A stretch of DNA of 8,391 nt from Nitrospinota bacterium (lineage in GTDB: Bacteria > Nitrospinota > Nitrospinia > JACRGO01): the NCBI GenBank assembly GCA_016212295.1, contig JACRGO010000155.1, forward strand, positions 1 through 8,391, in the 5' to 3' direction. Positions 1,744 through 8,247 of the stretch are shown here, in pieces (the first letter of the stretch is position 1; each line of letters starts with the position of its first letter). Position numbers and translations under genes: made by a program. Under the pieces are notes generated by a model. That model was given only the letters and a program-made list of their open reading frames with translations, was not told the origin of the DNA and made no database searches.

Positions 1744-1750
1744 GGGGAGG
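1744..1750 (+). promoter_or_regulatory. Shine-Dalgarno site that fixes the TTG start at 1759
   Basis: GGGGAGG lies 8 nt before the TTG codon at 1759-1761. No ATG or GTG in this frame is as well placed, and the N-terminal residues that follow (MTNYQSLGMGQRFF) suit the cytoplasmic lead-in of a cytochrome b. The strong site supports the rare start codon. Confidence 0.7.
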
Positions 1751-1758
1751 AATTCAAC

Positions 1759-3837
1759 TTGACTAATTACCAATCATTAGGAATGGGGCAAAGGTTCTTT
1801 CTTTATCTTGACAGCCTGGGAAACAAAATATTCACGCCGAAATATAATCCCCTGTATTACACGGGGGCCATTTCCACCATCTTGATGGCGTTTCTTTTTA
1901 TTAACGGCCTGTATTTGTTCCTCTACTACAGGATCGGCGTGGAAAACGCGTGGGGCTCCCTGGACTATATATCAAATAAGCAATGGTGGCTTGCCGGGAT
2001 CATGAGGAGCACCCATAGATACGCAGCCGACGGGCTTATCATATCAGTGGTTATTCACATCCTCCGCGAGTATTTCCTGCAAAGGTTCAGGGCCTTCAAG
2101 GCGCTTGGATGGCTGACTGGATGGGCCATGCTGATTATTCTTTGGGACGTTGGCATCACCGGGTATTTAATGGTCTGGGACGAGCGCGCGCAACTCGTGG
2201 CCCTTTTAATAACGAAGCTTCTGTCAACCATTTCGGTTTTCCAGGCCTTGCCCACCAGCTTTTTAAAGAATTCCTCCGTCACCAACATGCTTTTCCTTAT
2301 AATCACCTTTTGCCATGTCTTTCTCCCCATACTCACGGGATTTTTCCTTTTCGTGCATCAGGCGGGAATAACCAGGTCCCACCTTATTCCGCCAAAACCA
2401 ATCACTTACACCATAGGCGGTCTGCTGGTCGCGTATTCGCTTGCATTACCTGCCTTGAGCTCCGCGCCGGGGGACTTGTCAAAGGTCCCGACCAGCGTGT
2501 CGATTGATTGGTTTTATCTTTCCTTCTTCCCCTACCTGAATCTGGTTTCTCCCACAGTGGCATGGCTGACGCTTTTTGTCTCAGGGGTGTTATTTATCGC
2601 GGTCCCCATGCTCTTTTTCAAGAAACAAACGCAGCATATTGCTTTCGATTTATCCAAATGCTTCGGGTGCAAGCTTTGTTACGAGGACTGCCCTTACGGG
2701 GCCATTGAGATGAAAAAGAGGTCGGACGGGAAAAAATTTGAACTCCAGGCCAGCGTGGTCGAAAAGAAGTGCGCTAATTGCGGCATCTGCGTGGCCTCGT
2801 GTGAATCCTTGTCTCTGAGCCTTGGAAATATAAGCAACGATGAAATAATAAAAAAAATCACGGACCTCATGTCGGCCCCGTCGTTGAAAAAGGGCGAACC
2901 CAAGATCCTGGGTTTTGTATGCGATTTCAGCATCAGGGACTACAGTGTCCCGAATATTTCCAACTTTCAGGCGATAAGGGTCCCATGCGCTGGAATGGTG
3001 CATGCCTCCTTCCTGAGCCATGCCTTCAAATCCGGGGCGGACGGCGTTATGGTCATCGGGTGCAAGATGGGGGACTGTTACTACAGGGAAGGAAATGTAT
3101 GGCTGGAGAAGAGGCTTGCCGGGGAAAGAGAGCCTTCCATCAGAAAAACCGTGGATTTAAGGCGGGTGAAAACATGCTGGTTGTCTCCGGTTGAGACCAA
3201 GGCATTTCAGGAAAATGTCCGGGCGTTTAACGACGGCTTAAAAACACTAAGTCCAGTGCCGGCGGGGAGCGCAAAAAAGGGGTGGGATAGTTTGGCCTCC
3301 AATGGAAAAAAGGCCTTCCCGGCCATGGTAGCTATCGGGCTTGCGATTCCCCTGCTCCCGATATTCTTTTTCACGAACCTGACGTTTTCCTTTTATCCCA
3401 AGGACATTTCCATGATAAAAATCAGTTTTAAATACGTTTCTCCCAGGCTGGAGGACTGTTCCGAGGAGGAAGTAAAATCGTATAAGGAACAAAGAAGCGC
3501 GCTCAGGCCGCACATGCAGCAAAAGCGCAATACCACGAATTGCGGCAAAAGGACCAGGAGTCCGATGAAGCTTCAGTTGACAGTTGACAATAAGGAGTAT
3601 ATGTCCAAGGTGTACCAGCCTGGCGGCGCCAGCTCGGATCTTTCCATCTCGGTCTATGACGAGCTCATGATACCGTCCGGGCCGCATAAGGTCGCTCTGA
3701 GAATGAAAAATCTGAAAGGCAATACCGAGGGTTTTGATTATGAATTCGAGGAAAATTTTAATTTAGAGCCGTCCAGGGTTTTTGTGTATTCCTTTGACCA
3801 GCCGGAGAAGAAATTTTTCAGGGATGAGGGGAAATAG
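1759..3837 (+). CDS. Cytochrome b / dicluster ferredoxin / MvhD-like fusion, membrane electron-transfer protein
   Basis: This is a 692-residue membrane protein likely to carry electrons between the quinone pool and a cytoplasmic Fe-S or flavin partner. Residues 1-210 resemble the cytochrome b N-terminal domain, with two His pairs, H86/H100 and H186/H200, each 14 apart, as expected for two b hemes. Further spans lie at about 217-235 and 260-288. Two [4Fe-4S] motifs follow: C301-x2-C304-x2-C307-x3-C311-P, and C338/C341/C344/C348, where the second lacks the usual Pro. Residues 380-450 match the MvhD/FlpD family (ILGFVC, then PCAGMV, then GCKMGDCYYREGN) with C388, C410, C435 and C440 kept, but the second Cys of the usual CxxC is Ser391. 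A last span at about 520-543 precedes a roughly 150-residue tail. Counting spans puts the Fe-S domains in the cytoplasm and the tail in the periplasm; this is inference. HdrA, hydrogenase and Rieske genes, usual partners of these domains, are absent nearby. The start is TTG with a strong ribosome binding site. Confidence 0.85.
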   Translation: MTNYQSLGMGQRFFLYLDSLGNKIFTPKYNPLYYTGAISTILMAFLFINGLYLFLYYRIGVENAWGSLDYISNKQWWLAGIMRSTHRYAADGLIISVVIHILREYFLQRFRAFKALGWLTGWAMLIILWDVGITGYLMVWDERAQLVALLITKLLSTISVFQALPTSFLKNSSVTNMLFLIITFCHVFLPILTGFFLFVHQAGITRSHLIPPKPITYTIGGLLVAYSLALPALSSAPGDLSKVPTSVSIDWFYLSFFPYLNLVSPTVAWLTLFVSGVLFIAVPMLFFKKQTQHIAFDLSKCFGCKLCYEDCPYGAIEMKKRSDGKKFELQASVVEKKCANCGICVASCESLSLSLGNISNDEIIKKITDLMSAPSLKKGEPKILGFVCDFSIRDYSVPNISNFQAIRVPCAGMVHASFLSHAFKSGADGVMVIGCKMGDCYYREGNVWLEKRLAGEREPSIRKTVDLRRVKTCWLSPVETKAFQENVRAFNDGLKTLSPVPAGSAKKGWDSLASNGKKAFPAMVAIGLAIPLLPIFFFTNLTFSFYPKDISMIKISFKYVSPRLEDCSEEEVKSYKEQRSALRPHMQQKRNTTNCGKRTRSPMKLQLTVDNKEYMSKVYQPGGASSDLSISVYDELMIPSGPHKVALRMKNLKGNTEGFDYEFEENFNLEPSRVFVYSFDQPEKKFFRDEGK

Positions 3838-5747: not shown

Positions 5748-6047
5748 ATGATGAAACTATTTACGTCGTCCATAATATGGGCCGGTGTTTGTATCCTGAC
5801 AGCGGGGTATGCCCTTGCCGAAGATGGCTTGGATATCAACAGCGCATTGGAAAAGGCAAATAAGTTTTACGAGCAAAGAGGAAACCCGGAAAACCTTAAA
5901 GCGGCGGTGGAGGTTTATGAAAATATTTTAAGGCACATTCCTCAAGTGGAAGCGTCAGGCGCCGGCGGCAGGGCTAAAGCATTGACCGCCCTTTCCAGAT
6001 GCTGCTTCAAGCTGGCCACATATCACGCCATGAGCGATAAGACTTGA
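5748..6047 (+). CDS. Small exported TPR-like protein, probably truncated
   Basis: This encodes 99 residues. A signal peptide (residues 1-24, ending YALA, cleavage before EDG) is followed by amphipathic helices. SALEKANKFYEQRGNPENLKAA...VYENILRHIP (32-65) and ALTALSRCCFKLATYHA (78-94) look like one to one-and-a-half TPR helical hairpins. Family members of this look usually continue with several more repeats, whereas this frame ends at consecutive TGA and TAG codons right before a stretch with no recognisable coding and then an aminotransferase remnant. I read it as the 5' end of a larger periplasmic TPR protein cut by rearrangement; a genuinely short protein is possible. Met2 at 5751 is an equally good start. 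The gene follows the sulfatase-like gene after 70 bp with a weak ribosome binding site. Confidence 0.55.
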   Translation: MMKLFTSSIIWAGVCILTAGYALAEDGLDINSALEKANKFYEQRGNPENLKAAVEVYENILRHIPQVEASGAGGRAKALTALSRCCFKLATYHAMSDKT

Positions 6048-6150
6048 TAGGAATTTGCTTTTTGAAGGTTTTTGATCACAATGTACTGATCATCGGAGGG
6101 AATGAAGTCCTGGAAGCAAGACTCCACATCCGGCATGGCGTCTCCAACCG

Positions 6151-6611
6151 GTGGCGGGTGGGTATTGGGAAGGGGCGGTGGACTGTGACTCCTTATGTTC
6201 CAAAGCCCGAGATGCTTTAAAACTTAAACCCATCGCTGAATCATGTCCGTTCGTTTCCGCTATCCGCGGCAAGGGGCTCATGTTCGGGCTCGACTTCGAT
6301 TGGCCGAAGGACTCCATGAAGCTGAAGGTTACATGGAAAATTCTGCACAAGTTGAACGAAAGCGTGTTCGGGCAGATGATTATAATTCCCTTGCTGCAAA
6401 AACACCGCATCCTGACACAAGTCGCCGGATATCACACGGAGGTCATCAAGTTCCTGCCCCCTCTCACAATCACCAAAGACGATCTGGACTGGTTTCTTGC
6501 CGGGCTGGACGATGTGCTGAAGGACACGCAGCGCGAGTGCCGGCGACCGCCTGCAACACCATCCTCGGCCTGGCCAAGGGCGTGCTCCTGGCCTGTATAA
6601 GCAGCCTTTAA
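6151..6611 (+). pseudogene. C-terminal remnant of a class-III (PLP) aminotransferase, frameshifted
   Basis: The frame reads as the small C-terminal domain of a class-III pyridoxal-phosphate aminotransferase: FVSAIRGKGLMFGLDF, then LLQKHRILTQ, then VIKFLPPLTITKDDLDWFLA. The large domain with the PLP-binding Lys is missing, so the enzyme cannot work. Recognisable homology begins at about 6180, with no suitable start codon or ribosome binding site. Near 6525-6545 the frame slips: the first frame degenerates into CRRPPATPSSAWPR and ends at 6600, while the frame one base back continues plausibly as CNTILGLAKGVLLACISSL and stops at 6609-6611. A one-base loss or two-base gain explains this. The stop overlaps the next start as TAATG, preserving the old operon joint. 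The stretch 6048-6150 upstream holds nothing I can assign and probably contains the breakpoint. Confidence 0.75.
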
Positions 6612-7460
6612 TGAGCAGCATCAAGGAAACATCCAATTCTTCCACAACCGCCGCATGCAACGGTCTCATGCGTACCGGATTCGGGTCCGCGTACGTCGCG
6701 GACCTTTCCACTCTCAAGGGCAAGGCCCGCTTCGAGTCAATATTTCAGGCGCATCGCAAGGACCACGTTTCCATGTAAATCATCCAGGAAACCATCCGCC
6801 AGGGCTTTGAGTACTATTACCTGGTCCTTGAGGACCGGGAGGGAAGGGTCCGGGTCATACAACCGTTTTTCGTGCATGGGCAGGACCTTCTTGCCGGCGC
6901 CGGACCTCCGGCGCAAATTCAGAAACGCGGCCAAGACCCCTCCGCTGGGCATGCAGGCCGTCACTGATCTCACTCCGTACGTGGATGAGGTATACCCGCT
7001 TTATCTCCAGGTGTACGAACGGTCCAAGCTGCGGTTCGAGAAGCTGACCAAGGAATATCTCCGCCGCATTGGCGCCGAGCGCCCGGAGAAGGCGCGGTTC
7101 TTCATCTGGCGGCAGGAAGGCAGGCCAGTGGCCTTCAGCGTGTGCGCGTTGCATGATAACGCCCTGTGGGACGAGTACATAGGAATGGACTACGGCGTCG
7201 CGCTCGATCTGCACTTGTACTTTCTCACCTTCCGCGATCTGATCAATTGGTGCTGCAAGCAGGGCCTTAAACGATACTACAGCACGGCCCTTGGATACGA
7301 TCCGAAGCTGCATCTGAAATGCAGGCTGGCGCCCATTGATCTCTACGTGCGGCATACCAGCCCCTTGATCAACCAGGTTTTCCGCCGGGTCCTTAAGTTT
7401 TTGGAGCCGACCCGCGGCGATCCGGTCCTCAAAAAATTTCCAAACGCGAGCGAGTTATGA
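6611..7460 (+). pseudogene. GNAT/FemAB-like acyltransferase gene broken by a nonsense codon and a frameshift
   Basis: Three pieces of one gene are visible. Piece 1 starts at ATG 6611 and reads up to KARFESIFQAHRKDH before an in-frame TAA at 6776-6778. Piece 2 continues in the same frame (QETIRQGFEYYYLVLEDREG) to about 6900. Piece 3, in the next frame from about 6903, reads DLRRKFRNAAKTPPL and then RFFIWRQEGRPVAFSVCALH, DEYIGMDYGVALDLHLYF and DPKLHLKCRLAPIDLYVRHT to the TGA at 7458-7460. These are hallmarks of a GNAT-fold family related to peptidogalycan/FemAB-type acyltransferases, which usually have about 370-400 residues. The jump from DLLAGAG to DLRRKFR omits roughly the middle hundred residues (estimated from memory of the family), so an internal deletion happened as well. 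The short direct repeat CCGGCGC (6894-6900, 6908-6914) lies at the joint. The last frame alone could give a C-terminal fragment from TTG 6807, but that part is out of frame with the gene until about 6900. Confidence 0.75.
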
Positions 7461-7909
7461 CCGGCCACCGTGAAAGTAAATTAGAAAGCGGGATATCCGG
7501 GCAAGCCGTCTTGCCGTGGTTCCTTAATCCGTTCCTCCATCTCGCGCTTAATGGACTTCTGAGAACAGTGTCCGAACTGCTCTTCAAGCGCGCGGCAATT
7601 GCCGCGGCTGATGTGCCGGCCCCCTCGTGGCTGGCCTGGCTGGGCTTTACCGCGTTGGGGTCATGGTGGATATGGGCCGGCACCATCCTGGCCATAGCGA
7701 GTTTTATATGCTGGCTGCACGTGCTACGGTTTGTGCCGCTCAGTATCGCCTATCCAGTGGCAAGCGCCGTCCATGTGTTGATCCCGTTAGGCGCATGGGC
7801 TTTTTTGGGAGAAACGCCGGGACCGGTTCGGTGGTTCGGGATCAGCCTGATCATCGCAGGCAGATTGGTCATCTCCGGCCCTATGGTCAGCGCGGAGGAA
7901 AAATTATGA
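7457..7909 (+). CDS. SMR/EamA-type small membrane transporter subunit 1 (ArnE/F-like)
   Basis: This encodes 150 residues with four predicted membrane spans (about 22-46, 60-84, 88-112 and 124-141) after a hydrophilic N-terminus. VPLSIAYPVASAVHVLIPLGAW followed by GETPGPVRWFGISLIIAGRLVI is the typical second half of small multidrug resistance and ArnE/ArnF-type proteins. Such proteins export small cations or flip polyprenyl- or lipid-linked sugars. Span 1 contains E40 and K44 (SELLFKR), E40 being a candidate for the membrane Glu used by SMR exporters. The start overlaps the stop of the GNAT gene (ATGA) and the stop overlaps the start of the next gene (ATGA), so translation is coupled. The partner gene suggests a heterodimer. 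Gly-Arg near the end (GRLVI) puts a charge where family members usually have an apolar residue. Confidence 0.75.
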   Translation: MTGHRESKLESGISGQAVLPWFLNPFLHLALNGLLRTVSELLFKRAAIAAADVPAPSWLAWLGFTALGSWWIWAGTILAIASFICWLHVLRFVPLSIAYPVASAVHVLIPLGAWAFLGETPGPVRWFGISLIIAGRLVISGPMVSAEEKL

Positions 7910-8247
7910 CCAGGATGGCCCTGTTGGCGCTGCTGGCGCAAGCGGCCCAGGTGGCCGGGCAGATTTTTCTAAAGCACGCCATGACGTCCAACGGCCGCTG
8001 CCAGGGTACGGCAGGCAAGGCAAAACTCCACTTCACGGCCGGGATAAGCCTTCTAACGCTTTGGTTTTTTCTGTGGATAGGACTTCTCCAGAAGTGGGAC
8101 CTGAGCTACATATTCCCCTTCGAGGGGGTCAGCCCTGTGCTGATAGTCCTTGCCGCCTGTTTTTTGCTCAATGAAAAGATGCCCATGAGGTCTTGGGTCG
8201 GCGTCGCCTTGATCTCGGTCGGGGTGGTTTTGGTGGGACTAAGCTGA
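7906..8247 (+). CDS. SMR/EamA-type small membrane transporter subunit 2 (ArnE/F-like)
   Basis: This encodes 113 residues, four spans, and is the partner of the preceding gene. ATG at 7906 is chosen because it forms an ATGA overlap with the upstream stop and has GGAGG at 7894-7898, 7 nt before it; longer in-frame starts would lie deep in the upstream gene. Span 1 reads LLAQAAQVAGQIFLKHAM: the GQxxxK pattern resembles ArnE (AGQLCQKQA), with Q19 where SMR drug exporters have Glu. The C-terminal half, WDLSYIFPFEGVSPVLIVLAA followed by NEKMPMRSWVGVALISVGV, is typical of the family. With its neighbour it probably forms an asymmetric dimer in the inner membrane that moves the product of the decayed biosynthetic genes upstream. 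It ends 5 bp before the right-hand 20-bp repeat, and no hairpin terminator is visible. Confidence 0.75.
   Translation: MTRMALLALLAQAAQVAGQIFLKHAMTSNGRCQGTAGKAKLHFTAGISLLTLWFFLWIGLLQKWDLSYIFPFEGVSPVLIVLAACFLLNEKMPMRSWVGVALISVGVVLVGLS

Follow-up and report, generated by a model that had tools for sequence, protein, structure and literature searches.

The window analysed here, a stretch of 8,391 bp, is one entire contig of a genome of 3.74 Mb in 237 contigs. It carries an intact gene for a large membrane protein, whose start codon reads as TTG and whose features are collected in Table 1. The flanks are short because the window is a whole contig; no HdrA, hydrogenase or Rieske gene is found on it, in agreement with the earlier note, and no NuoF gene is present either. 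A MITE-like palindromic element with inverted arms of about 26 nt lies close 5' of the gene (1541-1672), and more copies occur on contigs C148, C74, C226 and C134 of the same genome. Positions 5748-6600 contain short open reading frames, in which a TPR-like start and a piece like the C-terminal part of a class III aminotransferase are recognizable by eye, suggesting a decayed or frameshifted stretch. A pair of neighbouring EamA/EmrE-like half transporters, the first being ArnE/ArnF-like, is located at 7457-8247 with a FemAB/GNAT-like gene alongside.

Table 1. Features of the fusion gene (positions in the window; aa, amino acid residues).
Feature	Position	Strand	Extent or basis
Ribosome-binding site GGGGAGG	1744..1750	+	8 nt 5' of TTG; direct reading
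Fusion of cytochrome b, subunit IV, two [4Fe-4S], MvhD, membrane helix and beta-sandwich tail	1759..3837	+	692 aa
Cytochrome b6-like four-helix core, aa 27-202	1837..2364	+	Pfam PF00033; Foldseek to complex III cytochrome b
Helices E and F, subunit-IV-like part, aa 205-296	2371..2646	+	Profile match to cytochrome b6f subunit 4
Ferredoxin-like dicluster domain, aa 294-350	2638..2808	+	Pfam; eight cluster cysteines
MvhD/FlpD domain, aa 378-504	2890..3270	+	Pfam, structure match
Seventh membrane helix, aa 521-538	3319..3372	+	AlphaFold model; charge distribution
Periplasmic beta-sandwich tail, aa 539-692	3373..3834	+	Model pLDDT 90; Cys pair C567/C595

Domain architecture of the fusion protein

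The protein was described in the earlier note as one polypeptide that joins two b hemes, two [4Fe-4S] clusters and an MvhD domain, with an added membrane span and a periplasmic tail. Domain search and structure prediction bear this out. Pfam matches were obtained for Cytochrome_B (aa 27-202, E 1e-14), a Fer4 dicluster (aa 300-349, E 8e-9) and FlpD/MvhD (aa 401-497, E 6e-22). Confidence in the AlphaFold model is high along its whole length (mean pLDDT 92.1, pTM 0.89); Foldseek aligns it with complex III cytochrome b across some 290 columns and matches the MvhD part separately. The charge distribution, read by the positive-inside rule, predicts cytoplasmic Fe-S and MvhD domains and a periplasmic tail.

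Conservation was counted over 94 non-redundant homologues. The four histidines that would ligate the two hemes (H86, H100, H186 and H200) are present in all 94. Helices E and F (aa ~213-285) were not named in the earlier note. The family profile of aa 205-296 matches cytochrome b6f subunit IV (E 3e-5) and PF00032 was matched in 14 of 32 family members (best E 3.6e-6), so the membrane part can be described as cytochrome b6 plus helices E and F. D250-W251-F252 (2506-2514) aligns with the PEWY position of the quinol-oxidation site; D250 is invariant (94/94) and W251 nearly so (93/94). The loop of this putative quinol site is predicted from the sequence to face the periplasm.

On the cytoplasmic side, each of the eight cluster cysteines (301/304/307/311 and 338/341/344/348) is found in at least 93 of the 94 homologues. 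The MvhD part reads C388-D-F-S391, followed by C410, C435 and C440, and these four cysteines are each kept in 93-94 of 94. The CxxS noticed in the earlier note is indeed there (S391, 2929-2931) but is not peculiar to this copy: position 391 is Gly in 42, Ser in 29, Ala in 15 and Cys in just 1 of the 94 homologues, so that S391 represents the normal state of the family. Judged against the same alignment, every redox ligand is retained in the window copy.

The extra C-terminal domain proved likewise to be family-wide. It is fused in 37 of the 94 homologues, and in the other 57 it is mostly encoded by a separate gene immediately 3' of the fusion. Fused tails cluster on the tree, yet several changes are required; thus fusion or separation of the tail occurred more than once. 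The Cys pair (3457-3459 and 3541-3543) is present in 79 of 89 tails, and Arg600 and Gly623 in all 89. A Pfam search of 42 tails gave no convincing recurrent family, FixG_C has no match among them at E up to 1, comparison with PDB sequences gave no usable match, and no cofactor site is evident. In structure comparison, the tail scored best against the luminal beta-sandwich of HGSNAT (Z 9.7, rmsd 2.8, 97 residues aligned); we claim the fold alone because this Z score barely exceeds the background of 7-8. In locus L033, a separate tail-like reading frame of 133 residues (6987-7388) neighbours a fusion with a tail of its own; it lies where the contig stops and is probably the terminal part of a second fusion truncated there.

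Genomic association with eNOR-type heme-copper enzymes

The homology scan of genome contigs yielded at least 586 encoding stretches. The best 80 of these are hosted by Nitrospirota, Nitrospinota, Alpha- and Gammaproteobacteria, Magnetococcales, Mariprofundaceae and Aquificaceae, as well as by Deltaproteobacteria-labelled MAGs and one Hydrothermarchaeota-labelled MAG. Viral spread was rejected, with 28 pattern matches in viral contigs giving zero relatives. No published description of the fusion and no biochemical work on a family member were found in the literature searched, to which the eNOR-defining paper (Murali et al.) did not belong. The fusion family is a widespread and largely unstudied group of membrane proteins.

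The gene neighbourhood was surveyed in 88 loci, the counts coming mainly from the best 80 of the at least 586 stretches. The genes recur in the order CuA subunit II, heme-copper subunit I, heme o synthase, SCO, fusion, tail and hemerythrin. A COX2-HCO-SCO-fusion-tail operon is located on a plasmid in Defluviimonas sp. SAOS-178_SWC, an environmental bacterium that can be cultured. Where 4 kb or more of upstream sequence was available (47 loci), eNOR-type subunit I was found in 44, SCO in 44, CuA subunit II in 38 and heme o synthase in 23. Other genes near the fusions encode NirK, NirS, NirDL, Fnr/Crp regulators and hemerythrin. The survey also answers a possibility raised in the earlier note, that homologues are always encoded with a standard HdrABC or hydrogenase partner and have a normal CxxC, which would make the window copy a damaged relic. 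HdrA flavin regions, Rieske proteins or patterns and NiFe large subunits are absent from every open reading frame of the 88 loci, and the normal CxxC occurs in 1 of 94 sequences. HdrABC, hydrogenase and Rieske partners were therefore rejected, as was the damaged relic, the redox ligands being kept and the CxxS-type change being family-wide.

Subunit I aligns with ba3 oxidase and has Gln at the Tyr237 position; helix VI reads GH[S/P/A]SQQ, with Gln replacing the ba3 Tyr, in all 52 readable subunits. Gln at this position is the eNOR residue (Table A4, PMC8756737). A ba3-a1 subtype lacking the Tyr is discussed in PMC6431628; PMC8879329, which cites Hemp et al. 2021, names ba3-a1 eNOR and reports it to be an NO reductase. 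The B-family enzyme beside the fusion family is thus of the eNOR type and a predicted NO reductase, a class assigned from one active-site residue, similarity and these published descriptions rather than from a reference tree. eNOR is a recently recognised and widespread source of the greenhouse gas N2O.

The association extends to whole genomes. Seven of 60 relatives have a full-length fusion, and the identical seven have the eNOR subunit (chance 2.6e-9); in 185 genomes of a gammaproteobacterial class the fusion occurs in 12 and eNOR in the identical 12 (chance 4e-19), both figures being too extreme because relatedness is ignored. In 2 of these 12 genomes a distance of about 18 kb, or a contig boundary, separates the fusion from eNOR. 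The eNOR clusters of Thermus and Thermomicrobium (GHGAQQ) are without the fusion, so eNOR has no general need of it.

The window copy and a second fusion in the same genome, located next to mreBC on contig C165, do not adjoin eNOR genes. The genome has eNOR-type clusters on contigs C3 and C98, both without the fusion; eNOR-type subunit I and CuA subunit II, encoded with the fusion in the family, are thus found only elsewhere in the genome for the window copy. The earlier note had called the gene an orphan. It is indeed off-operon, but comparison of the 94 homologues and the eNOR clusters elsewhere in its genome make it an orphan by position only. The window copy has a long branch (1.46) and groups with relatives of its class with a support of 88, the grouping being drawn unresolved in detail; the other genome from its genus yielded no close orthologue.

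In Nitrospinota and Nitrospirota relatives, the fusion adjoins a gene for a NuoF-like protein that contains FMN and [4Fe-4S] domains, and the gene following the fusion in relatives from the window's class encodes such an NADH/FMN flavoprotein. NuoF is near the fusion in just 11 of the 88 loci. In the window genome, NuoF matches (about 40%) are on other contigs, within longer open frames. In four loci (L036:4068-9877, L049, L055 and L057) one NuoF-like gene is flanked by two diverged fusions, an arrangement that suggests a heteromeric complex of two paralogous fusions and NuoF.

Comparison with known systems

The fusion resembles the Rieske/cytochrome b complexes bc1 and b6f in its four-helix diheme core, similar ligand spacing, helices E and F and, at the PEWY position, a candidate quinol-site motif (DWF). 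In contrast to them, the family has no Rieske protein, cytochrome c1 or cytochrome f, and adds the cytoplasmic ferredoxin and MvhD domains and the periplasmic beta-sandwich tail. It would be a bc-lineage cytochrome b that works without Rieske and carries its Fe-S chain on the other face of the membrane. Two complexes of Kuenenia stuttgartiensis (Kuste4569-4574 and Kustd1480-1485; PMC12954380) likewise combine a b6-like cytochrome b and a part resembling subunit IV with an NAD(P) oxidoreductase in the cytoplasm, but have Rieske and multiheme cytochromes c, whereas the fusion family is tied to eNOR with no Rieske beside it. The MvhD domain shares its fold and four of five conserved cysteines with MvhD/FlpD of HdrABC-MvhAGD; unlike that system, the family has Gly, Ser or Ala in place of the second Cys of CxxC and no HdrA or hydrogenase partner. 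In relation to eNOR (ba3-a1, B-family), its conserved genetic partner, the fusion is an added module absent from the Thermus and Thermomicrobium clusters.

CcoG/FixG, the cupric reductase for cbb3 assembly, is also a membrane protein with a ferredoxin-like dicluster that is tied to a heme-copper enzyme, and FixG carries a periplasmic C-terminal domain. CcoG is not known to have a cytochrome b membrane part or an MvhD domain, both of which are present in the fusion, and the fusion's tail lacks a FixG_C match. FixG_C was not found in the window genome but is present in G001.

Possible roles of the fusion

The fusion probably serves eNOR because its relatives almost always adjoin eNOR genes, and we are highly confident that the family as a whole partners this enzyme. 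The window gene is most likely an off-operon copy of this eNOR-associated cytochrome b/ferredoxin/MvhD protein and presumably continues to serve eNOR. The family, whose distribution over genomes coincides exactly with that of eNOR in both bacterial samples and whose architecture could carry electrons through the membrane, is a testable candidate for eNOR electron supply or assembly.

Our leading reading, which we hold with even confidence, is that the fusion acts as a transmembrane electron conduit for respiratory supply to quinone or eNOR. Sequence comparison and prediction show the domains, the ligand conservation, the topology as predicted and the co-occurrence with eNOR in operons and genomes; cofactor occupancy, electron direction, donor and acceptor are what we infer in the following scheme. 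A low-potential cytoplasmic donor (NADH via the NuoF-like flavoprotein where present, otherwise some ferredoxin or flavoprotein) would deliver electrons at the MvhD [2Fe-2S] site, from which they would pass to the two [4Fe-4S] clusters. The two b hemes would then carry them through the membrane to the vicinity of the DWF site, where a quinone or an acceptor in the periplasm would take them up and the tail would hold the eNOR/SCO side. The operon link (44/47), the exact co-occurrence (7/60 and 12/185) and the neighbours NirK, NirS and NirDL, together with Fnr/Crp and hemerythrin, are consistent with this reading, as are the complete redox ligands of the window copy and the eNOR clusters C3 and C98 of its own genome. 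The existence of fusion-free eNOR clusters in Thermus and Thermomicrobium and the low frequency of NuoF (11/88) argue against it, and so does the position of the window copy and the C165 paralogue away from eNOR. The window copy, given its off-operon position and long branch, may have diverged in function. The earlier note had proposed a wire from quinones to a soluble flavin or ferredoxin partner encoded elsewhere. The predicted quinone-type site, the cytoplasmic Fe-S entry and the NuoF-like gene next to the fusion in class relatives, which makes a soluble flavin partner plausible, agree with that proposal; the conserved partner eNOR was missed in it, and the recurrent neighbour turned out to be eNOR-type subunit I.

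The position of the fusion between SCO and the tail gene, 3' of heme o synthase, fits an assembly factor equally well. In such a role, the protein would be a transmembrane reductase that feeds electrons to the periplasm during eNOR assembly, its target being either copper or the cysteines in SCO, in the CuA subunit or in the tail. The periplasmic tail with its conserved Cys pair and no evident cofactor site points in this direction, and membrane reductases based on Fe-S or heme have precedent in supporting heme-copper enzymes: CcoG is a cupric reductase with Fe-S and CrpH a candidate heme-based copper reductase (PMC8267372, PMC13038864). A metal reductase would, however, not need the quinol-site region (helices E/F and DWF) that is kept, and the eight cluster cysteines plus MvhD look elaborate for assembly alone. 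Some eNOR clusters also lack the fusion, and the tails fail to match FixG_C. We regard the assembly role as the main rival to electron supply, a serious one though less likely than not.

A third reading is quinol bifurcation at DWF, in which one electron would go to eNOR and NO, while the other would travel over the b hemes and the Fe-S clusters and yield NAD(P)H or reduced ferredoxin. The conserved D250-W251 at the PEWY position, the Fe-S exit on the n-side, the adjacent NuoF in relatives and the very oxidising acceptor would suit such a reaction, and bifurcation of a comparable kind has been proposed for the Kuenenia complexes in which Rieske/cytochrome b is linked to NAD(P) (PMC12954380). 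No Rieske pattern occurs in the 88 loci, leaving no known carrier for the high-potential electron, and the tail is without a cofactor site; bifurcation is thus unlikely. Also unlikely is the idea of a Rieske-free, bc-lineage cytochrome b in a supercomplex with eNOR, linking NAD(P)H or ferredoxin to periplasmic NO reduction directly or by quinol bifurcation. If it were true, either low-potential electrons would be fed straight to NO reduction, or NO reduction would drive the reduction of NAD(P)+ or ferredoxin through quinol bifurcation. A reading in which the window copy has diverged or is decaying, and as a paralogue plays no part with eNOR, is very unlikely: its off-operon position, its branch length of 1.46 and the failure to find a close orthologue in the genus's other genome stand against an intact frame, a clear ribosome-binding site, a high-confidence fold and retention of all redox ligands and most family-invariant residues.

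Some further heme-copper genes were observed. A second type of subunit I, with helix VI GGGHxLQF and Phe at the Tyr position, is a neighbour of the fusion in about 10 loci; it has no match to PDB sequences at E 0.01. Examples are L034:3244-4707, L138:8191-9342 and, in the window genome, G000:C185:16992-18353; in G001 it is near ccoG/ccoI-like genes. A cluster on contig C98 of the window genome (L134, 2860-7865) holds, side by side, two distinct genes for heme-copper subunit I and a pair of genes for CuA-type subunit II.
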